64,000 nt of DNA, taken from positions 1 through 64,000 of the forward strand of contig NZ_LFME01000028.1 in the NCBI RefSeq assembly GCF_001043115.1. The letters are read 5' to 3'. The translations under genes were made by a program, and so were the position numbers. This stretch comes from Xanthomonas sp. NCPPB 1128 (GTDB taxonomy: Bacteria > Pseudomonadota > Gammaproteobacteria > Xanthomonadales > Xanthomonadaceae). This document shows positions 7,350-50,199 of the stretch, piece after piece (position 1 is the stretch's first letter; each line of letters opens with the position of its first letter). Under the pieces are notes generated by a model. That model searched no databases and was not told where the DNA came from. It saw only the letters and a list, made by a program, of their open reading frames with translations.

Positions 7350-7356
7350 CGGCTTC

Positions 7357-8221
7357 TCCCTTCTCCCACCGGGAGAAGGTGCCCCGCAGGGGCGGATGAG
7401 GGTACGGGCGAAGCCTCGCAGCGATCGATCCATGCAGGCGCTACGCGCCCCGGACCCTCACCCCAACCCCTCTCCCGGGGGGAGAGGGGCTCGGCGTCTC
7501 CCTTCTCCCCTCGGGAGAAGGTGCCCCGCAGGGGCGGATGAGGGGACGGGCGAAGCCTCGCAGCAATGGATCCAGGCAGGCGCTTCGCGCACCGGACCCT
7601 CACCCCAACCCCTCTCCCGAGGGGAGAGGGGCTCTGGCCCTCCCTTCTCCCACCGGGAGAAGGTGCCCCGCAGGGGCGGATGAGGGGACGGGCGAAGCCT
7701 CGCAGCAATGGATCCAGGCAGGCGCTTCGCGCGCCGGACCCTCACCCCAACCCCTCTCCCGGGGGGAGAGGGGCTCTGGCCCTCCCTTCTCCCACCGGGA
7801 GAAGGTGCCCCGCAGGGGCGGATGAGGGTACGAGCGAAGCCTCGCAGCGATGGATCCATGCAGGCGCTTCGCGCGGCGCACCCTCACCCCAACCCCTCTC
7901 CCGGGGGGAGAGGGGCTCTGGCCCTTCCCTTCTCCCCTCGGGAGAAGGTGCCCCGCAGGGGCGGATGAGGGTGCGGGCGAAGCCTCGCAGCAATGGATCC
8001 ACGCAGGCGCTTCGCGCGCCGGACCCTCACCCCAACCCCTCTCCCGAGGGGAGAGGGGCTCTGGCCCTTCCCTTCTCCCACCGGGACCATGGCCCCCTTT
8101 TCGGGGGAAGGTGCCCCGCAGGGGCGGATGAGGGTACGAGCGAAGCCTCGCAGCAATGGATCCACGCAGGCGCTTCGCGCGCCGGACCCTCACCCCAACC
8201 CCTCTCCCGAGGGGAGTGGGG
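7357..8221. repeat. Six-copy tandem array of 142-bp palindromic repeats
   Basis: Six units follow one another between the uppP stop and the stop of the convergent PEBP gene. The marker GCCCCGCAGGGGC starts at 7381, 7523, 7665, 7807, 7950 and 8113, giving periods of 142, 142, 142, 143 and 163 bp. Each unit carries three hairpins (CTTCTCCC-GGGAGAAG, GCCCC-GCA-GGGGC, CCCCTCTCCC-GGGAGAGGGG). They are joined by a segment containing CGAAGCCTCGCAGC and GATCCA. The last unit has an insertion of about 20 bp containing CCATGGCCCCC. No gene is supported inside: all six frames are repetitive shadows. Single or double copies recur at 19336-19431, 53256-53573 and 62315-62371. Confidence 0.93.
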
Positions 8222-29338: not shown

Positions 29339-30154
29339 TCAGCGCCCTGCCGGCAACGCCTCGTAGGCCTGGCGCACCGCCGCTTCGCCATAGCGGCGTT
29401 CCAGCCGGCGCACGATGAAGTGACCGCGCGCCATCGCCTGGAAGTGCGAGATGAACACCGTGTTGAGCAGCGCGCCACTGGCCGCGCCGACCAGCGGCAC
29501 CGCCTGCGCCGCCAGCTTCTCGCTGACCGTGACCGAGAACTTGGCGGCGATGCGCGACAGCAGCGACACCAGCACCGCCGCGCCCTTGCTGCCCAGGCCA
29601 TGCGCGGCGATGTACTGCGCGGCGGCGCTGAGTTGCTGCGCCATCGCCGCGCGCACCGCGAAGTAGCCCGATTCGCTGCCGTCGTCGCGGTGGCTGCGGC
29701 CGCCGTGCGCCAGCACCTCCAGGCAGGCCAGGGCGGTGGCCGGATCGTCCAGACGCTCGCCTTCGGCGCGGGCGATGTCGGCGATGGAGCGCAGCATGAG
29801 GGTGGTGGTCAGCGGCAATTCCACCACCAGCCCGGGCAGGCCGAAGAAGCCGCCGGCGGCACCGGTCGCCGCCACCGCGGCGCCGTGCAGGCGCGGCCGC
29901 GCACGCTCCGGCGCCTGCCCACGCAGGGTCAGCAGCGCCGAGCGCAACGCCACCCGCAGCGCGCGCTGGCTGACCGCATCGATGCGTGAGGACAGCATCT
30001 TCGGCATGCGCTTGCTGATCAGCGCCTCGATCGGCGCGCCCACCGCATTGGCGATCTTCGCCGCCAGGCCGGGGTGTTCCAGCAGCGCGCGCGCCTGGGC
30101 CAGGTCGCGGTGGTCGGCGGCATCCATCACGGGGACGGGCAATAGCGAGGTCAT
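29339..30154 (-). CDS. EcsC family protein
   Basis: The 271-residue product matches EcsC-family proteins, which accompany or resemble the Bacillus EcsC protein and whose biochemical role is unclear. Family marks are the central GAAGGFFGLPGLVVELPLTTTLMLRSIADIAR and the C-terminal VPLVGAASGALLNTVFISHFQ, both amphipathic or hydrophobic and likely membrane-interacting. ATG 30154 begins MTSLLPVPVMD. It lies between the MFS carrier and the NYN gene, all on the minus strand with gaps of 84 to 120 bp. Confidence 0.83.
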   Translation of the reverse strand: MTSLLPVPVMDAADHRDLAQARALLEHPGLAAKIANAVGAPIEALISKRMPKMLSSRIDAVSQRALRVALRSALLTLRGQAPERARPRLHGAAVAATGAAGGFFGLPGLVVELPLTTTLMLRSIADIARAEGERLDDPATALACLEVLAHGGRSHRDDGSESGYFAVRAAMAQQLSAAAQYIAAHGLGSKGAAVLVSLLSRIAAKFSVTVSEKLAAQAVPLVGAASGALLNTVFISHFQAMARGHFIVRRLERRYGEAAVRQAYEALPAGR

Positions 30155-34718: not shown

Positions 34719-34816
34719 AGCCATCACCGCCCTTCCCGTATGCTTGGCGCCACCTCGACCGCGCACCGGCGATGCGGCGCGCGGCAGGATCGGCTGCCGA
34801 TCGAAGGAGACGGACG

Positions 34817-35380
34817 ATGCACCAGCACCAGGGAACCCAGGGCCAGCGCCGCCTGCGCGCATGGCTGATCGCCGCGATGGTCGCAGGCGTGTGCGGCAAC
34901 GCCGCCGCGCAGCAGGTCGACCCGCGCGATGCGCAACTACAGCAACAGCAGCGCCTGCTGCAGCAGCAGGCCCAGCAGATCCAGCAGATGCAACAGCAAC
35001 TGCAGCAGATGCCGCCGCCCGGCACGGGCGCCGAGGGCGGCACGCCGAGCGATGGCCTGTCCGCCACCTACCACGACTGCCGCAAGCAGGCCCAAGGCCT
35101 GGACGAGAGCCGCCGCTGCATCCAGCGCGAACAGCGCGTGCAGCAGGAGCGCCTGGACCGCGCCTACGACAAACTGCGCTACCGCCTCAGCGGCATGGAC
35201 CGTTCGCGGCTGATGGATGCGCAATACACCTGGCAGCAGTCCAACGAACAGGCCGCACACCTGGACCGGGCGCTCGGCGCCCGCGGCCAGGAAGCGGCCC
35301 TGCAAAGCGCCGAAGCCATCCTGCGCCGGATCAGCTCCCGCGCCGACGAACTGGAAGGCTATACGCGCGGCGGGCGTTGA
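34817..35380 (+). CDS. LprI/DUF1311-type secreted protein with Gln-rich coil
   Basis: The 187-residue protein has a signal peptide (LIAAMVAGVCGNAAAQ) and a glutamine-rich coiled coil (residues about 38-65, QQQQRLLQQQAQQIQQMQQQ). The C-terminal helical domain resembles the lysozyme-inhibitor LprI family: two cysteines (HDCRKQ and RRCIQRE), then LDRAYDKLRYRLSG and AQYTWQQSNEQ. It may guard against host lysozyme, but this is by family only. ATG 34817 has a GAAGGAG site. It is the last gene before the AT-rich island. Confidence 0.8.
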   Translation: MHQHQGTQGQRRLRAWLIAAMVAGVCGNAAAQQVDPRDAQLQQQQRLLQQQAQQIQQMQQQLQQMPPPGTGAEGGTPSDGLSATYHDCRKQAQGLDESRRCIQREQRVQQERLDRAYDKLRYRLSGMDRSRLMDAQYTWQQSNEQAAHLDRALGARGQEAALQSAEAILRRISSRADELEGYTRGGR

Positions 35381-35481
35381 GGGTGGCATGCCATGGCCGC
35401 ACCCATAATAATTTTTACCATTTAGTCACATAAAGCAACTGCACAAATAGTAATCACCTTAAATCAGGCAGCCAATCGATT

Positions 35482-35625
35482 TTAGTCAAGACCGAGTTGA
35501 CTAATAAAATAATTGAACGAAGAGCTATACTTTTTGGCCTCGGAGGCTCTTACGAGAGGAAATAATTCGGAAGAGTGTTTTATTTCATTATAATCATAGC
35601 CATGAAGAAATATCTTTTTTATTTC
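35482..35625 (-). CDS. -1-frame C-terminal extension of the TOPRIM-like gene
   Basis: Reading the minus strand one base back from the A AAA AAG heptamer gives 47 more sense codons ending in TAA at 35482-35484 (EIKKIFLHGYDYNEI ... SSSFNYFISQLGLD). The tail has an A-S-x-x-x-SFxxF pattern like the C-terminus of related TOPRIM-like families. Joined to the first 135 residues it would give a 182-residue protein, nearer the normal family size. It may be made by programmed frameshifting, or mark a disabled gene or a homopolymer read error. Confidence 0.6.
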   Translation of the reverse strand, partial: EIKKIFLHGYDYNEIKHSSELFPLVRASEAKKYSSSFNYFISQLGLD

Positions 35626-36029
35626 TTTTTTTCCATGAGTTGACTCATAAACTTTTTGTTTTTTATTTTTTTAAGATATTTCTTTTGCTCCGACAGATGC
35701 GCAATATCTGCCAGAAGCCAATTCTCAATCATCTGATCTGCTATTACAACAACGATTTCCTGCTGAAAAACTTGCAAGGCTTTTCTTTTGATACTTTCTG
35801 CAAAACTTTCTAAAGAGCAGTTTCTACCTTCAAAGTCTGTAATCAACGCTATTTTTGTACATCCCCATGCCGAGAGAATAGCCATCTGTTTGCGCGCGCT
35901 TTCTACTATTGCACATTCAGCAGCCGTGTGGCCTCTAGGACCATCAGATTTCAATATCTTGACACGTCCCTTGTACCTAGCATTTAAGGCCGCGTAGTCT
36001 CCTGCCCCATCTACTATTACTCCAAGCAT
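35619..36029 (-). CDS. Small TOPRIM-like protein partner of the ATPase
   Basis: In the zero frame this gene encodes 136 residues. The N-terminus has GVIVDGAGDYAAL (an acidic residue in the TOPRIM glutamate position, here Asp7) and the later strand ALITDFEGRN (Asp65-x-Glu67) like the DxD motif. This resembles small DUF4276-type TOPRIM proteins that sit beside ABC/OLD ATPases. The ATG overlaps the ATPase stop as TAATG, so translation is coupled. The frame ends after MEKKK in a poly-A run, leaving the family C-terminus missing unless the ribosome shifts -1 at 35625-35631. Nuclease or nucleotidyl chemistry is inferred by family. Confidence 0.72.
   Translation of the reverse strand: MLGVIVDGAGDYAALNARYKGRVKILKSDGPRGHTAAECAIVESARKQMAILSAWGCTKIALITDFEGRNCSLESFAESIKRKALQVFQQEIVVVIADQMIENWLLADIAHLSEQKKYLKKIKNKKFMSQLMEKKK
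35625..35631 (-). promoter_or_regulatory. Slippery heptamer A AAA AAG, candidate -1 frameshift site
   Basis: On the minus strand codons GAA AAA AAG place A AAA AAG exactly in the zero-frame phase of the E. coli dnaX -1 frameshift site. An 8-bp inverted repeat (AAGAAATA / TATTTCTT, 35605-35627) begins inside the heptamer, too close to be a textbook stimulator. The -1 frame then stays open for 47 codons. Confidence 0.5.
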
Positions 36030-37408
36030 TATCCCCCTCCTGCGACTGCACCAATCGCTCCACTAACCCACATATCTCCAAGCCCAAAGTTAGTTGCGTC
36101 AAGCAGCTTCTGCACTTCTTTTTCATCATCAACGTTTTGTACTTTTGTTGCGCCAGATTCATGCCTAACAAGAAGCAGTTCACGTACAACCAAAGAATTT
36201 AGAATGGTTGCGCTGTGAGTCGTCATAATTACTGCCGTATTTAATTTCTTACCCTGTTCTCTAAGAATGGATACAAATCTCTGCTGCATCCACGGATGCA
36301 TAAAATTCTCAGGCTCCTCTAGAAGAATCACCTTAGATTGAGGGACATAAATAGCCACAAGGAGGCAGAGCCACTTCATCGTTCCATCTGAAATTTCTTC
36401 AGGCCTGAATCTATGCGCACCTGATTTGAATACTACAAATCTTCGTCCAGTTGATGGATCAAGCTCAGTACAAAGACCATCTATAGAAGATACAGCAGCG
36501 CTTAAATGTTCTACTATTTTCTCAAGCGGATTGCTCTTCGCTAAACTATTTGCGCTGTAGTAGTTTTCCCACCCAAAACCAAAAGTATGCTTTTGACCAT
36601 AGTATCCGCCGACATAGGACGTATTTACCAGCCGATGGTACTGCTGGGATTCAAGTGCATTAATCACTTCACTTACAGCCCTGCCATCATTGCCCATCTT
36701 AGTTAGAGGCAATGGATCTACAGCAAGACGAGCAACATCCGGCTGAATATTGTACTCGTCAAAAGAGCCTATTTCTGTCAATAATCTTCGCACAGATGCA
36801 TGAAGCCATGCGAAAGAAGGAAGAAAAGAAGCATCTGAAGGGCGCTTTCTTATAGAAGAAAATGTTTCCGATATTAATTTGTTGGCATTTTTAAAAACCT
36901 CCTCTTTACTCATTGCCCGCTGCGCAGCAACCATTTTTTTTGTAAGTACGGCGTGGCTTATTTCGTCAGCCTTGTATTTAACCAAACCAGCCGGACTTCT
37001 AGTCAACTCCATATTAATAACGGGCTGATTATGCTTACTTGGCACAACAGAAAGGGTCTCTCTACTGATCTGAAGAAGGTTATCACTTTGCGTTAGCGAC
37101 AAAGACACGCTCCAACGCAACCAAAACTTAACCTGTCGCCCTTTGTAAAGACTAGTTTCGTACTCTGTAACTACGACGAACGAGATATCCGTCGTTCCTC
37201 TTTTAAAGTTTCTAGAAGGCCCCCCTGCTCTGCCTAATGCGACAGCGCCGCCGTCATGAAGCAACGACGATAAAAACCTCAAAGACTGCAAGACATTTGA
37301 CTTGCCGGCGCCATTAGGTCCAACAAGAACATTCAACCCGTTTCGAATTGAAAAAACGGACTCTTCGATTGATCTGAAATTTCTTACTAAAACAGTTGTC
37401 GGCTGCAT
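36029..37408 (-). CDS. ABC/OLD-type AAA ATPase
   Basis: The 459-residue ATPase is of the SMC/ABC-like group found in OLD and PARIS-type defence systems. It has Walker A GPNGAGKSN (residues 30-38), a Walker B strand VILLEEPENFMHPW near residue 355, an H-loop MTTHSATIL, and the end GLGDMWVSGAIGAVAGGG, which is typical of ATPases adjoining DUF4276-type proteins. It likely senses a phage or DNA signal and controls the small partner; this is inference. ATG 37408 follows a G-rich ribosome-binding site (AGAGGGG). Base composition is far more AT-rich than the neighbouring genes. Confidence 0.85.
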   Translation of the reverse strand: MQPTTVLVRNFRSIEESVFSIRNGLNVLVGPNGAGKSNVLQSLRFLSSLLHDGGAVALGRAGGPSRNFKRGTTDISFVVVTEYETSLYKGRQVKFWLRWSVSLSLTQSDNLLQISRETLSVVPSKHNQPVINMELTRSPAGLVKYKADEISHAVLTKKMVAAQRAMSKEEVFKNANKLISETFSSIRKRPSDASFLPSFAWLHASVRRLLTEIGSFDEYNIQPDVARLAVDPLPLTKMGNDGRAVSEVINALESQQYHRLVNTSYVGGYYGQKHTFGFGWENYYSANSLAKSNPLEKIVEHLSAAVSSIDGLCTELDPSTGRRFVVFKSGAHRFRPEEISDGTMKWLCLLVAIYVPQSKVILLEEPENFMHPWMQQRFVSILREQGKKLNTAVIMTTHSATILNSLVVRELLLVRHESGATKVQNVDDEKEVQKLLDATNFGLGDMWVSGAIGAVAGGG

Positions 37409-37623
37409 TACCCCCCCCTCTAACTTCGCATCCTAGACTCTAAAATTTTTATCTGTCGCCCCAACCACCATCCGTAGCCCATTCACCTTTACATATAAAA
37501 TTGAGCAACTCTATGGTCTTGTAAAATACATCACATTTGACTCGCCCGATATGCGCAGCCAAAATCGTCTACAATTGCTTATATAAAGCTTTCACCAACT
37601 CTAAGCGCAGCTAATCAAGCTCT

Positions 37624-38142
37624 TTAGGGCGCGCAGCCCCCGCCCTGTTCCGCGCACACCTTCATGGCACGTTGCAGCTCGGCCTCGCTCAGCTGCGGGG
37701 GCGGCCGCGCGACCGCGGCCTGGACCTGGTCGGGGCCGCCGGTTAGCGCATGCAGACCCTTGGCCGCCTTGCCGGCCAGGTAGTAGACGCCGAGCGCGAT
37801 GTATCCGCCGCTCTGGCTGACCTGCTCCACCGAGGGCGGCGGCCGCCAGTCCTTGTCGAAGCGGTTGGGCGGCGGCGACACCGGATTCTTGAAGCGGTAC
37901 AGGTCCAGCGGCTCGCCCTCGTCCGGGGGCAGCGCGCGCACTTCGCCCAGGGTCTGGATGTCGGGCTGCGCGGCGGCATCGGGCGCAGCCGATGCGGCGA
38001 CCGGAGGCGGCGGCGATGCAGATGCCTGCTCGGCAGGCGCAGCCTGTTGCGCCTGCGCCTGCGTGCACGCCACCAGCAATGCGACTGCCAGCAAGGCGCG
38101 CAGGCGCCGGCCGATCGGATCCGCTGTGTCCACGCTGTCCAT
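37624..38142 (-). CDS. Secreted Ala/Pro-rich protein of unknown function
   Basis: I do not recognise the 172-residue product. It has a signal peptide (residues about 13-32, LRALLAVALLVACTQAQAQ) and a Pro/Ala/Ser-rich stretch. A conserved-looking core follows (LYRFKNPVSPPPNRFDKDWRPPPSVEQVSQSGGYIALGVYYLAGKAA). Such short proteins with a PPxxF core occur in Xanthomonadaceae as hypothetical periplasmic proteins. ATG 38142 is chosen because it precedes the signal peptide. It directly borders the AT-rich island and has the normal high GC of the chromosome. Confidence 0.65.
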   Translation of the reverse strand: MDSVDTADPIGRRLRALLAVALLVACTQAQAQQAAPAEQASASPPPPVAASAAPDAAAQPDIQTLGEVRALPPDEGEPLDLYRFKNPVSPPPNRFDKDWRPPPSVEQVSQSGGYIALGVYYLAGKAAKGLHALTGGPDQVQAAVARPPPQLSEAELQRAMKVCAEQGGGCAP

Positions 38143-38197
38143 GGCGCCCGAGCTTACGGACGCGGCGCGGTCATCTCTAGCGCATCGGCGCCGCCGT

Positions 38198-38854
38198 TCA
38201 CGTCGGCGACAGCGGCCGCAGGCACAGCCAGATCGCGCACCAGTGCGCCAGCGCGCCGCCCAGCACGTGTGCATGCCAGATCGCGCGGTTGTAGAGCATC
38301 GACTTGCGCACGTAGAAGGCCACGCCCACCGTGTAGATCGCGCCGCCGGCGGCGATCAGCCACAGCACCGGCGTGTCCAGCCCGGCCACGATCGGCTTGA
38401 CCGCGGCCATCCCCGCCCAGCCCAGCAACAGGTAGATCGCCACCCAGAAGCCCTTGGCGATGCCGGGCAGGAACAGCTTGGCGAACACGCCGAACAAGGC
38501 CACGCCCCACACCGCCAGGGTCATCGACCAGACCCAGGCGCCGGACAGCGCCAGCACGAAGAACGGCGTGTAGGAGCCGGCGATCATCACGAAGATGCCG
38601 GCATGGTCGAGCTTGCGCAGCACCGGCTGGCGCTGCGGCGGGGCGAAGTTGTACGCCGCCGAGCAGGCGAACATGGTCAGCAGCCCCAGCGCGTAGATGC
38701 TGGTGGCGACGATCAGCGCGTCGTTGGCATGGGCGCGCCAGACCAGCAGCGCGCCGCCGACCACGGCCAGCAACAGGCCGGCGGCATGCACGAGCAGGTC
38801 GGCGCGGCGGGCGGCGGCGGTACGGTAATGGGGGGGAAGCGGGAGAGCGGACAC
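38198..38854 (-). CDS. Hemolysin III/YqfA (PAQR-like) membrane protein
   Basis: The 218-residue protein has seven hydrophobic spans and the family motifs FACSAAYNF, LRKLDHAGIFVMIAGSYTPF and WHAHVLGGALAHWCAIW, whose histidines bind a metal in PAQR proteins. The family includes hemolysin III; in most bacteria the role is membrane homeostasis rather than toxicity. No ATG is present at the N-terminus: GTG 38854 is used, TTG 38860 is possible. Confidence 0.85.
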   Translation of the reverse strand: MSALPLPPHYRTAAARRADLLVHAAGLLLAVVGGALLVWRAHANDALIVATSIYALGLLTMFACSAAYNFAPPQRQPVLRKLDHAGIFVMIAGSYTPFFVLALSGAWVWSMTLAVWGVALFGVFAKLFLPGIAKGFWVAIYLLLGWAGMAAVKPIVAGLDTPVLWLIAAGGAIYTVGVAFYVRKSMLYNRAIWHAHVLGGALAHWCAIWLCLRPLSPT

Positions 38855-39048: not shown

Positions 39049-39456
39049 ATGACCGTGCCGCCACAACGGCTGCCGTCTTTCCTGCATTTTCTCCCGTTCG
39101 CCTTGCTTGCAGGATGCACCATGACCGATCCCCATATTTCCCAAGCCCAGTTCGCGCAGCGCGTGGAAACCCTGCTCGGCGGTCGCGACAACGTCGTCGT
39201 GGCTGCCAGCCAGTTGACCGATTTCCCGTGGGCTTCGTTGTGCTTCACGCGCGATGACAGCCTGCGCCTGACATTCAAGCAGGACACCGGCGAACAGACG
39301 CTTTCGCTCCCGTATGAGCAGTTCTTCGTCGACGAAGCGCACGTCCCACAATCGCTGGAGGACATGTGCGTGAAGCCGGGAGAACGCATCCTCATCCGCA
39401 AGAAGTATCCTGGCTACGCGGGGCCAGTGGAGTTCCTCAAGCCAGCGGAGGGCTGA
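39049..39456 (+). CDS. Lipoprotein, probable immunity protein (X-Tfi)
   Basis: The 135-residue protein has a lipoprotein signal ending LPFALLAGC and a small mature domain with two further cysteines (ASLCFTR and DMCVKPG). I recognise no family. Its position 2 bp before the XVIPCD effector gene is the usual arrangement of periplasmic lipoprotein immunity proteins for Xanthomonas T4SS toxins, so it most likely neutralises that toxin (inference from context). ATG 39049 has a strong GGAAGGAG site, and a good promoter lies upstream. Confidence 0.72.
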   Translation: MTVPPQRLPSFLHFLPFALLAGCTMTDPHISQAQFAQRVETLLGGRDNVVVAASQLTDFPWASLCFTRDDSLRLTFKQDTGEQTLSLPYEQFFVDEAHVPQSLEDMCVKPGERILIRKKYPGYAGPVEFLKPAEG

Positions 39457-39458
39457 AC

Positions 39459-40319
39459 ATGGTCGACATCACCGACCCCAAGGGCGCCAAGCGCGAGATC
39501 GAACAGGAAGCGTATCGGCACTACGAGCAACTCAGCGGCGTGCATCTGGCACGCCGCGCCGATGGCAGCATTCAGCCGCAAGGCCATAACGACGCGCTGG
39601 ATGCGTTCCGGCATGCCTACACCAGCGGGCGCGTCACCCAGATCGCCTTAGGGCAACAGTGGATTGCGCGCAGGTTCGGCAACGACGCCGAAATCGGCCC
39701 GGCCCACCCGAACGATCCCGCAGAGCACCGCATGGATCTGTGGAACAACGAGGCTGGGCGCCGTATCGGCGACAGGACCTCCGGCGCCGATCAACTCGCC
39801 CGGGAAACCTACGCCGCCCTGAAGAACGGCGAGCTCGTGACCGGCCTGAACGACGCGCGCCTGAAGCAGCTCTATCCCGAAGACCCGCGCCTGAAGTTGC
39901 CGGCAGGAGACCCGCAGCGCGAACTTGTCGACCATGATGCAGTCGACCGAATCAATCGCGATGTGACCAAGCTCCAGGACCAGGCCCAGGAACGCTTTCC
40001 CCAGAATCACCCCGACCGGGCGTATTTCGACGCGTTGCGCGATCGGCTGCCAGAGAGTGTGTCCGACGCCAAGGTGGCACAGGCACTGGTCGCCGCGAAG
40101 AGCGCCGGGATTGAACGTGTCGACCAGCTGGGAGCCGTGACGCTGCAGGATCAACAGATATTCATCGCGGGGCGAACGCCCGGATTCCGGACCCAGCTGG
40201 ATGCGCATGCTGCAGCACCGCCAATCCGCGAAAGCGCCTACCAGGCGGAGCAGCAACACGCCGTTCAAACATACGAGCAGGCGCAACAGCCAAGCCAGGG
40301 ACAAGCGCGCGCCTACTGA
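39459..40319 (+). CDS. T4SS killing effector: DUF6973-like toxin with XVIPCD
   Basis: The 286-residue protein has two parts. Residues about 40-105 (HNDALDAFRHAYTSGR ... AEHRMDLWNNEAGRRIGD) resemble DUF6973, a toxin-like domain with His, Asp and Asn residues. Residues about 178-286 match the XVIPCD secretion domain of Xanthomonadales antibacterial type IV effectors: NHPDRAYFDALRDRLPE, a GIERVDQLG core and a Gln-rich tail. It is probably injected into rival bacteria to attack the envelope. ATG 39459 is 2 bp after the lipoprotein stop; no signal peptide is present, as expected. No T4SS structural genes lie in the window. Confidence 0.82.
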   Translation: MVDITDPKGAKREIEQEAYRHYEQLSGVHLARRADGSIQPQGHNDALDAFRHAYTSGRVTQIALGQQWIARRFGNDAEIGPAHPNDPAEHRMDLWNNEAGRRIGDRTSGADQLARETYAALKNGELVTGLNDARLKQLYPEDPRLKLPAGDPQRELVDHDAVDRINRDVTKLQDQAQERFPQNHPDRAYFDALRDRLPESVSDAKVAQALVAAKSAGIERVDQLGAVTLQDQQIFIAGRTPGFRTQLDAHAAAPPIRESAYQAEQQHAVQTYEQAQQPSQGQARAY

Positions 40320-47244: not shown

Positions 47245-47808
47245 ATAGGTCGCAGGTCATGGGCTGGCGGTTGGCTGCAGGCTGGCGATGACGTCCGTCC
47301 GGGACGCGGCGGTAGCGCCTCATCCCATTCCGGCGGATGCCGCATCGGTCCTGGGCATTCGATCGTCCATGCCCCGCGCACACGTGCGGCGCGAGATCCG
47401 CATCCACCTCCACCATGCACGCACTCGCCATAGAAGTTTATGGCGATCCGGCCCTGTTCGCACAGCGACACCAACGCCCTATACCCAGGTATCGCATCGC
47501 ATACGCGCAGCAGGCACGGCTGTACCAACGCGCAATGGTGCAAGCGCACATGCGATGCAAGAATTCCCTGCATCGCTTCACACCGCTGTATTCACCGTGG
47601 GAAGTGCGCTGCCGCAGCTGCGCCGTTCGCCTCCATCGCGCCGGAGCGGGCCGCCGCACCTGCCGCGCGCCACCTCCCAGGGTCCGCGCCGCATCGCTGG
47701 CGCCCTTCCATCGCAAACGCACAGCCAGCCGGACGCCGCCGCGAAGAGGACGCCCTGCGCTGGGTGCGCGCCTGCGCCACCGCTTCCCACTCCACGCCGG
47801 ATCCGACC
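47245..47808. other. Divergent region between blaI and the TonB receptor
   Basis: About 560 bp without a convincing gene. Weak palindromes are GCCATAGAAGTTTATGGC (47427-47444, 6-bp arms) and ATACCCAGGTAT near 47485. The long frames crossing it belong to the upstream extension of the receptor frame and its antisense shadow. A regulator of the receptor might bind here; I cannot name it. Confidence 0.45.
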
Positions 47809-50199
47809 ATGCACGCGACTTCCTCCCGTCTCCGCGCCGCCGCCCTGCCGCCGTCCGCATCACATCGCCATATGCAGGCAGGCATGCCGTCGTTGCTGTC
47901 TGCGGCGCTGGCAACGTGCCTCGCCGCGTCCTCGGCGCATGCCGCCGACGCGGTCGCCAGCGCCGATGCCGACACCACGCCCACCACGCTGTCCGCGCTG
48001 GACGTGGTGGCCTCGCCGCATGCGGCGGCGGTGGCGCCCACCCAGGTGGTGGGCCCAAACCGCTATGTCATCAATGCCGGCGACATGGACGCGGACATCG
48101 CCGGCAGCAACGGCCTGGCGCGGCTGAAGACCGTGCCCGGCGCCAGCTACACCGCCACCGATGGCCTGGGCCTGGACGTGTCCGCCACCAGCCTGTTCGT
48201 GCGCGGGTTCCGCATGAACGAAATGGGCATCACCTTCGAAGGCGTGCCGTTGAACGACAGCGGTTTCCTGTCGTTGACCGGGACCAGCGTGGTCAACGTG
48301 GCCGTGCCGGATGCCATCGGCACCATCACGGTCAGCCCCGGCGCGGCACCGGTGAGCGTGTTCTCCAGCAGCGCCAACGGCGGCGCGCTGGAGTACCGCC
48401 TGGGCGAACCGAAGGACACGCCCGGCCTGCGCCTCAAGCAGGGCGTGGGCAGCGACGCGACCCGGGTCACCACGGTCTCCGCGCAGAGCGGGCAACTCGG
48501 CGACAACGGCCCGAAGCTGCAGGTCGACCTGCAGCGGCTGGGCGCGGACAAGTACCAGGGCGGCGGCACCCAGCACTTCCTGCGCGGCGATCTGAAGGCG
48601 ACGCAGGACGTGGCCTGGGGCACCTTCACCGTGTTCCTGTCCGCCAGCCATGCGGCGATGTGGGGCTACAACAACCTGTCCTTCGACATGCTCGGCAAGC
48701 TCGGCTGGCGCGCTGACAGCGTCTATCCCGATTACGCCAGGGCCTATGCCATCGCCCTGCCGCAGAACGCCGGCGCCTCCTGCGGTGCCTACACCTGCGG
48801 CGCGCTGGCCGGACTGCTGCCGTACGACACCGGCCAGGTCACCGACGACCGCATCGCCTCGCTCGCGCACGATTTCCGCATCTCCGACGCGCTCAGCGGA
48901 CGCGTGCAGGTCTACAGCGCGCGCAGCCGCACCCATGCCACGCTGAGCGACCCGACCACGCCCTCGCCCGACGGTGCGCCGTTCTCCGAGCAAGTACAGG
49001 CGCCGCACCTGCAGCGCACCGGCGGCCTGCTCAGCCTGACCTATGTGTACGGCCGGCACACCCTCAGCGCCGGCCTCTGGCAGGAGCACGCCAGTGCCGA
49101 CGCGGCGACCTTCTGGTACACTGAACCGCTGCTGGGGCAGGGCCGGCCGCTGCGCACCACCGGGCCGTGGGATGTGTACGGCCCGGCCTTCAAGACCGAC
49201 AACGTCTCGCAGTGGACCACCCGCGCGCGCCAGGCCTACGTGCACGACGACATCGCGCTGAGCGACACTCTGGTGCTGGGCGTGGGCGCCAAGGCAGTGG
49301 ATTTCCGTACCAGCGGTGGCGGCGTCGGCGATGCGCCGGACCGGCCCGCGGCCGGCACGCTGCGCGCCAAGCGTGCGTTCCTGCCGCACCTGTCGCTGTT
49401 CTGGAGCCCGACCGCGCAGACCGATGGCTTCATCGACCTGGGCAGCGCCATGAACGGCTTCCGCGTCGCCCAGCGCGGCAACATCGGCTACACCGCCTCG
49501 GCCTGGACCGTGCCCGACCAGGACGCCTTCGACCGCCTCACCCGCAGCCTGCGCCCGGAGCAGGACTGGAACCTCACCGTCGGCGGCACCCATCGCTTCG
49601 ACCGCGCCACAATCACTGCCGACGTGTTCTACGGCGACATCCGCAACCGCCTGCTGTCGGCCGCGGTCGGCACCCAGTTCGCGCAGGTCAACACCGTGCA
49701 GGTGATGCCGAAGATGCACACGTTCGGCGTCGACCTGGGCGTGACCGTGGACCTGACCCCGCACCTGCAGTTCTATCAAGGCGTGGCGCTGGCGCGCTCG
49801 GTCTACGACCGCGATGTCGTCGTCGACGGCACTGTCTACTCAATCCAGGGCAAGGCGCAGCCCGGCTATCCGCAACTGTCGCTGGTCAGCGACCTGTCGG
49901 CGCATGTGCGCCACTGGCGGCTCGGCGCCACCAGCACCGAATACCTGCATCAGCCCTTCACCTACGAGAACGACCTGCGCGTGCCGGCGTTCTGGCAGGT
50001 CAACGCGTACACGGCCTACACGCTGGGCGCGGACAGCCGGCTGCCCGGCCTGGAACTGCGCCTGGACGTGAGCAACCTGCTCGACCGCCACACTATCGGT
50101 ACCGCCAACATCGCCGGCTCGGCCTTTGCCGGCGACTACCAGACGCTGCAGCGCAGCGCGCCACGGCAATTGCTGTTCAGTACCTCGCTGGCGTTCTGA
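47809..50199 (+). CDS. TonB-dependent outer-membrane receptor
   Basis: The 796-residue protein has a signal peptide (about residues 25-47, cleavage near AHAAD), a plug domain (GLARLKTVPGASYTATDGLG ... LFVRGFRMNEMGITFEGVPLNDSGF) and a 22-strand-type barrel rich in alternating aromatics, ending LLFSTSLAF with the terminal Phe of outer-membrane proteins. The start MHATSSRLRAAAL is chosen at ATG 47809. The substrate is not clear: plug and barrel suggest a siderophore or other chelate. No neighbouring transport or chelate-synthesis genes help. Confidence 0.9.
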   Translation: MHATSSRLRAAALPPSASHRHMQAGMPSLLSAALATCLAASSAHAADAVASADADTTPTTLSALDVVASPHAAAVAPTQVVGPNRYVINAGDMDADIAGSNGLARLKTVPGASYTATDGLGLDVSATSLFVRGFRMNEMGITFEGVPLNDSGFLSLTGTSVVNVAVPDAIGTITVSPGAAPVSVFSSSANGGALEYRLGEPKDTPGLRLKQGVGSDATRVTTVSAQSGQLGDNGPKLQVDLQRLGADKYQGGGTQHFLRGDLKATQDVAWGTFTVFLSASHAAMWGYNNLSFDMLGKLGWRADSVYPDYARAYAIALPQNAGASCGAYTCGALAGLLPYDTGQVTDDRIASLAHDFRISDALSGRVQVYSARSRTHATLSDPTTPSPDGAPFSEQVQAPHLQRTGGLLSLTYVYGRHTLSAGLWQEHASADAATFWYTEPLLGQGRPLRTTGPWDVYGPAFKTDNVSQWTTRARQAYVHDDIALSDTLVLGVGAKAVDFRTSGGGVGDAPDRPAAGTLRAKRAFLPHLSLFWSPTAQTDGFIDLGSAMNGFRVAQRGNIGYTASAWTVPDQDAFDRLTRSLRPEQDWNLTVGGTHRFDRATITADVFYGDIRNRLLSAAVGTQFAQVNTVQVMPKMHTFGVDLGVTVDLTPHLQFYQGVALARSVYDRDVVVDGTVYSIQGKAQPGYPQLSLVSDLSAHVRHWRLGATSTEYLHQPFTYENDLRVPAFWQVNAYTAYTLGADSRLPGLELRLDVSNLLDRHTIGTANIAGSAFAGDYQTLQRSAPRQLLFSTSLAF

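Follow-up and report, generated by a model that had tools for sequence, protein, structure and literature searches.

Two questions are raised by the small gene that follows an ATPase gene at positions 35,482 to 37,408 of this stretch: whether its divided reading frame is a programmed frameshift, and to what kind of system the two genes belong. The window analyzed here is the whole stretch of 64,000 nucleotides from contig NZ_LFME01000028.1 of Xanthomonas sp. NCPPB 1128. A preliminary description, made from the sequence alone, had read the two genes as a compact defence module with a candidate programmed -1 frameshift. We consider it probable that they are a transferred anti-phage pair of the HEC-01 type, in which an insertion or deletion (indel) in an A-run has broken the frame of the effector, leaving it off or leaky, and that the break is not programmed. 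This judgement weighs mainly the identity of the module and the unprogrammed nature of the break. The likelihoods given to it and to its rivals overlap and need not sum to one, and the explanation by a sequencing artefact shares the same reading of the module.

The pair and its orthologs

The pair lies in a 2.2-kb insert of ~42% GC within DNA of ~70% GC. GC content is 0.417 at 35395-37620 vs 0.703 in the remaining window, with an abrupt border. Only two open reading frames (ORFs) of at least 80 aa are present in the insert, both on the minus strand, and they overlap by the A of TAATG with GGAGG directly upstream. The parts are as follows.

35384..37629, no strand: AT-rich cargo insert with conserved flanks on either side (blastn flank ends and GC content)
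36029..37408, minus strand: ABC ATPase of 459 aa, AAA_21 and HEC-01A-like (Pfam and PADLOC matches)
35619..36029, minus strand: DUF4276, putatively TOPRIM-like, partner; 0-frame ORF of 136 aa, shorter than its orthologs (DUF4276 match and ortholog identity)
35482..35672, minus strand: C-terminal part of the partner gene in the -1 frame, with its stop at 35484-35482 (profile match and gain in the DUF4276 match)

HEC-01 is a PADLOC candidate system, proposed from defence context. The ATPase matches Pfam AAA_21 (2.4e-29), and its best PADLOC model is HEC-01A (PDLC04176, 1.8e-41). HEC-01A makes up 8 of the 10 best PADLOC families, the remaining two being AriA and AbiLi, and the ATPase models of MADS and Gabija are matched after these. 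The motifs GPNGAGKS, SDGT, LLEEPEN and TTHS are present and mostly kept across the ortholog alignment. For the partner, the 0-frame product reaches 25.9 bits against DUF4276, below the Pfam cut-off of 30.2. With the -1 tail, as the preliminary description had read it, the score rises to 36.2 bits and the match extends to profile position 191 of 192. The match to HEC-01B improves from 2.7e-7 in the 0 frame to 4.1e-9 with the tail, an assignment made on E-values and not by PADLOC's own score cut-offs. By these profile matches the pair appears to be of the HEC-01 type, with a HEC-01A-like ATPase and an adjacent HEC-01B/DUF4276 partner. In the literature searched, no paper was found for DUF4276, alone or together with ATPase and defense. 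HEC-01 with 'defence' and 'PADLOC' gave none among the matches listed; uses of HEC-01 in other matches were unrelated, and an excerpt of a phage-defence paper names HEC-05 (PMC11411939).

The GC profile and ORF list thus agree with the earlier picture of an AT-rich segment holding only an ATPase gene and a small gene coupled to it, and Pfam and PADLOC profile searches and the fold of an ortholog (see below) agree with that of an ABC/OLD-type ATPase with a TOPRIM-type partner. The earlier statement that the pair fits no described architecture found no support: HEC-01A and HEC-01B are matched, and a partner of ~180-220 aa is normal there.

Homologous ATPase-partner pairs, whose absence elsewhere would have counted against a module, do exist. 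When three aligned ATPases served as the query, 23 loci were found, and five of them are orthologs over almost its full length: L036 (Zixibacteria), L037 (Nostoc), L038 (Planctomycetia), L039 ('bacterium') and L040 (Calothrix). Identity to the window across the five is 35-36% for the ATPase and 40-48% for the partner, which is unbroken in all five and measures 184-190 aa. In a tree of 18 ATPases these orthologs are the rows nearest to the window. Eleven other relatives, with Pseudomonadota among their number, form a separate group (93/90, below what the tool marks as strong), and the forks that link the window to the five are open. Type I restriction-modification (R-M) loci enclose the pair in two of the five orthologs: in Calothrix it has a type I methylase gene, accompanied by an HNH gene, on one side and hsdR on the other, and in Nostoc it is flanked by a C-terminal piece of hsdR and a gene for an N-6 methylase. 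In L039 a reverse-transcriptase piece is found upstream of the pair. From homology and context we infer a role in anti-phage defence, in line with the compact defence-like module first proposed.

The frame change and its explanations

The -1 frame is open to the stop at 35484-35482, and any 0-to-minus-1 junction from codon 120 onward gives the 182-aa product that had been predicted to end there. A junction scan supports this product. With a profile built from the five intact partners, the 0-frame product scores 143.7 bits, and a switch to the -1 frame raises the score only from codon 120, just past a -1-frame stop at 35673. The score is 208.5 bits for a junction at 35669-35666, 204.0 bits for one after the A AAA AAC site (j124) and 184.9-186.4 bits, 22-24 bits worse, for one at the A AAA AAG heptamer (35630-35621). 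The last scores lower because the conserved EGxHGK motif gets replaced. The counterpart of the orthologs' EGTHGK is ESTHGK, which is read in the -1 frame and lies upstream of the A AAA AAG heptamer, and this position together with the junction scores places the frame change within the A-rich stretch 35658-35672. When the reading is switched at this stretch, it can be aligned to the orthologs with no gap at that point. The EGxHGK stretch and the C-terminal helices are missing from the 0-frame product.

The -1 tail is genuine coding sequence. It forms a separate match in a profile search of the genome (35476-35685, E = 1.2e-11), with a profile of 16 rows that included the window's 0-frame product and not the tail. 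Against the five-ortholog profile it scores 53.6 bits, compared with a maximum of 7.9 among 1000 shuffled tails. The sites concerned are these; the A7 run precedes the A AAA AAG heptamer by ~40 nt.

35666..35672, minus strand: A7 run, at which homology switches from the 0 to the -1 frame (junction scan)
35658..35664, minus strand: in-phase A AAA AAC heptamer at codon 121, second possible slip site (junction scan)
35625..35631, minus strand: in-phase A AAA AAG heptamer at codon 132, probably the site meant in the preliminary description (lower junction score)
35605..35684, minus strand: perfect 12-bp inverted repeat (arms 35684-35673 and 35616-35605) enclosing the A-runs and the 0-frame stop

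Of the marks of a programmed -1 frameshift, an in-phase slippery heptamer in the frame overlap is present, both as A AAA AAC and as A AAA AAG, and a frame change conserved in orthologs is found in none of the five close ones. Published criteria, as given in a portion of one source, ask for a conserved site and treat isolated cases as likely errors or indels (PMC3711429). We inspected the partner frame in 22 of 36 fetched loci (all save the 14 loci L052-L058 and L065-L071): 18 are unbroken, two are broken elsewhere in the gene and two are cut by contig ends. Three AT-rich, intact orthologs (L037, L039 and L040) have A-runs of 7-8 together with in-phase A AAA AAN heptamers at codons 115-145, all within a single frame. 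Because intact AT-rich orthologs carry heptamers of the same kind, those of the window are not evidence of programming; such A-rich sites appear to be the ordinary product of a Lys-rich protein encoded in AT-rich DNA. The earlier claim of a programmed shift is thus not supported. The frame change is real and the heptamer is in phase, but homology maps the change to the A7 run and all five orthologs are unbroken. In a separate case, the partner in a Hasllibacter metagenome-assembled genome (L043:4456-5076) shows a +1-type break, which falls between its motifs IENW and EGxGGK and away from any A-run.

Some observations weigh against an unprogrammed indel in a defence pair, and they are given here with the alternatives that they favor. 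A sequencing or assembly error, with an unbroken gene in the living strain, is possible, if doubtful. The A7 run is a homopolymer in a draft assembly of 71 contigs, the ATPase gene is intact, and the tail is not decayed, its identity to the orthologs being 35-47% compared with 43-49% for the head. Against an error, local frames look sound, 32 of 37 comparator ORFs being intact in the window. Two of the five flagged ORFs differ at their ends, two have one stop (34727-35260, antisense to the LprI gene, and 29420-30142), and the fifth (47369-50190) lies in two frames near its start.

Alternatively, slippage of RNA polymerase or ribosome on A7/A-AAA-AAC could control the effector, yielding mostly the 136-aa form and a little of the 182-aa nuclease, so that a dangerous nuclease is kept low. 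We regard this as unlikely. It would fit the three A-runs of 6-7 and two in-phase heptamers within the last 51 nt before the 0-frame stop, the conserved motif retained by both upstream-site junctions, and the undecayed tail. The inverted repeat encloses this stretch; none of 200 dinucleotide shuffles reaches 12 bp (maximum 10), for a feature spotted after the fact. The fold of the whole stretch has a z of -1.93, with 7 of 200 shuffles equally stable, and the repeat surrounds the slip sites and is not downstream of them. Frameshifting of 10% was measured on an A_AAA_AAA cassette, according to an extract of the source cited above (PMC3711429), and in a distant Zixibacteria locus (L045:5221-5820) the partner shifts into the -1 frame too, at an A7 that immediately precedes the stop. 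Against slippage stand the five unbroken close orthologs and the like A-runs in three intact AT-rich ones, and L045 looks decayed because its ATPase gene also has an in-frame stop (TAA). That A-run slippage is a recurrent off or leaky switch of HEC-01 systems, arisen independently in the window gene and in L045, seems to us just as unlikely; if true, slippage tuning would be a new way of dosing a self-harming immune nuclease.

It is improbable that the gene is a phase-variable switch, in which the A7 run gains or loses units between cells and turns the nuclease reversibly on and off. The A-run is rightly placed for this and the ribosome-binding region of the ATPase gene contains a G8 tract, but no second strain with the insert was found among the genomes searched, and seven A's are short for a contingency tract. 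A housekeeping or otherwise unrelated ATPase operon, raised at the outset as the alternative to defence, is very improbable: neither L036 nor L038 has an obvious defence gene nearby among the ORFs listed, but the pair is patchy, is absent at this locus from six close genomes, has a type I R-M context in two orthologs and shows kinship to HEC-01, OLD and PARIS. A dnaX-like ribosomal frameshift, programmed into the -1 frame at the A AAA AAG close to the 0-frame stop, for which the in-phase heptamer and the lifted DUF4276 score speak, is scarcely credible and was rejected on the lower junction score with loss of EGxHGK, the want of conservation and the common occurrence of such heptamers in intact AT-rich orthologs.

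The insertion site and the origin of the pair

The transferred HEC-01-type pair occupies a site whose borders are the LprI gene and a gene without a Pfam match.

34817..35380, plus strand: left host flank gene, LprI lysozyme-inhibitor family (Pfam LprI, 6.3e-7)
37624..38274, minus strand: right host flank gene, without a Pfam match at E <= 0.01 (ORF list and Pfam search)

The flanks are kept in six close genomes (left 92-97%, right 92-94%), where blastn matches stop at 35382-35383 and resume at 37630-37631. The synteny comparison suggested earlier shows that all six lack the pair at this locus and have other DNA in place. The slot measures 195 bp in G010. In G009 it holds a 2971-bp AT-rich insert with one SIR2 gene of 900 aa (L026:3798-6500), which matches the SIR2 of pAgo systems and PDC-S65. 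In the four other close genomes the cargo is GC-rich and 1.0 to 4.1 kb long, and in two of the four it includes X-Tfe (XVIPCD) genes. In two more distant genomes the slot is 285 and 274 bp. The site is a small cargo slot for defence and competition genes. No integrase ORF is present in the window's insert.

Among the cargo, L028:2705-4396 and L031:3148-4365 combine PG_binding and X-Tfes_XVIPCD domains and resemble antibacterial effectors of type IV secretion. The LprI gene of the window and a DUF6973 gene (39456-40316) may be of the same effector-related kind.

Within the genus, 4 of 20 genomes including its own match the ATPase at E <= 1e-10. Apart from the window's own genome, the matches cover ~155-160 C-terminal residues only, at 27-30% identity. 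These three genomes (L002, L003 and L004) carry, at other places, a distant pair of another group with an ATPase of the 400-aa class and a partner of 195-210 aa, and no further ortholog of the window pair was found in the 19 other genomes searched. At E <= 1e-20, matches besides the own genome number 1 of 398 in a phylum sample, 0 of 369 in a class sample and 2 of 398 in an order sample, and all of these are distant. There is overlap among the samples, and for most genomes the scoring took in four candidates. One hit shares its proteins with Luteimonas marina, which places the window's genome in the same family. A search with the single ATPase sequence found no relatives in genome_contigs or viral_contigs, and three alignment searches of viral_contigs (A5, A6 and A7) found nothing closer. 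Against plasmids and phages the window ATPase gave partial matches only, below 60% identity (96 and 1 records), none covering 80% of the query. The Calothrix ATPase matched 103 plasmid records, again none covering 80%, and an ortholog partner matched no plasmid.

The AT-rich insert, the cargo slot and the relatives without the pair support its acquisition by transfer, as first proposed, and it may have come from a distant pool.

Three repeats were noticed besides. A G8 tract (minus strand, 37411-37418) lies in the ribosome-binding region just before the ATPase start codon, where a change of length could alter expression. The longest A/T run of the window, an A8 at 36934-36941, is within the ATPase gene, the frame of which is kept. 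At 7351-8060, repeated blastn alignments offset by ~142 bp point to a tandem array that differs from its counterpart in G009.

Possible mechanism and comparison with known systems

A TOPRIM-like fold is predicted for the effector. An AlphaFold model of one ortholog partner (pLDDT 95) gave OLD and PARIS TOPRIM entries as its best VIA-align alignments, at modest Z, and thus bears out for this ortholog the fold expected in the preliminary description. This reading comes from the VIA-align comparison: Foldseek found nothing at E <= 0.001 for the model in the PDB and viral libraries, and a search of solved-structure sequences with the partner profile returned no TOPRIM and five hits at chance level.

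By analogy, the pair is best read as a PARIS/OLD-like sensor and nuclease. In PARIS, a hexamer of AriA holds AriB until a phage trigger frees AriB, which then cleaves tRNAs, as described in a section of one study (PMC12409363); OLD nucleases, in a part of another, supply an analogy for the roles of ATPase and TOPRIM (PMC10568477). The ABC ATPase would sense a phage product and, like AriA, hold the small TOPRIM nuclease in check; sensing would release or activate the partner, which would cut nucleic acid and so stop the infected cell. The roles of sensor and effector, the nuclease activity, the trigger and the defence are all suggested by these analogies. The indel in the Lys-rich, A-rich stretch would switch the module off or, if slippage on the A-runs occurs, make it leaky, and the effector is probably absent or scarce in the sequenced strain. 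This account corrects an attractive but probably wrong reading as a programmed frameshift, and given the type I R-M context and the TOPRIM-like fold, it can be tested directly whether these little-known pairs work by a PARIS-like mechanism.

Membership in PARIS (AriA and AriB) was rejected, since the partner is a DUF4276 and not a DUF4435/AriB protein: Pfam gave no DUF4435 match, and hhalign against four DUF4435 proteins gave a probability of 0.7%, which is not significant. Elsewhere in the same genome (contig C9, 89069-89704 and the preceding gene; L107) we noticed a second ATPase and TOPRIM-type pair, which is PARIS-like (AriA 2.5e-29, AriB 1.8e-17). In contrast to class 1 OLD and Gabija GajA proteins, ATPase and TOPRIM are two separate ORFs in the window and not one chain, and the helicase partner of Gabija (GajB) is absent from the insert. 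There are also matches to MADS, of the ATPase to MAD3 (2.4e-24) and, weakly, of the partner to MAD4 (0.025). Membership was rejected because the scores are far under the NCBIfam cut-offs (86.3 vs 420 and 14.7 vs 160 bits) and the insert has two genes, compared with a multi-gene cluster.

Compared with HEC-01 itself, the window partner is far from the PADLOC models for the partner (4.1e-9 at best, with the -1 tail), the pair is nearest to a cross-phylum ortholog group set apart from other relatives, and one of its two genes is not intact, the partner frame breaking at the A-run. The likeness lies in the same two families, in the adjacent, coupled genes and in the partner length of ~180-220 aa in relatives, and the pair adds a member to the cross-phylum ortholog group of HEC-01-type pairs.
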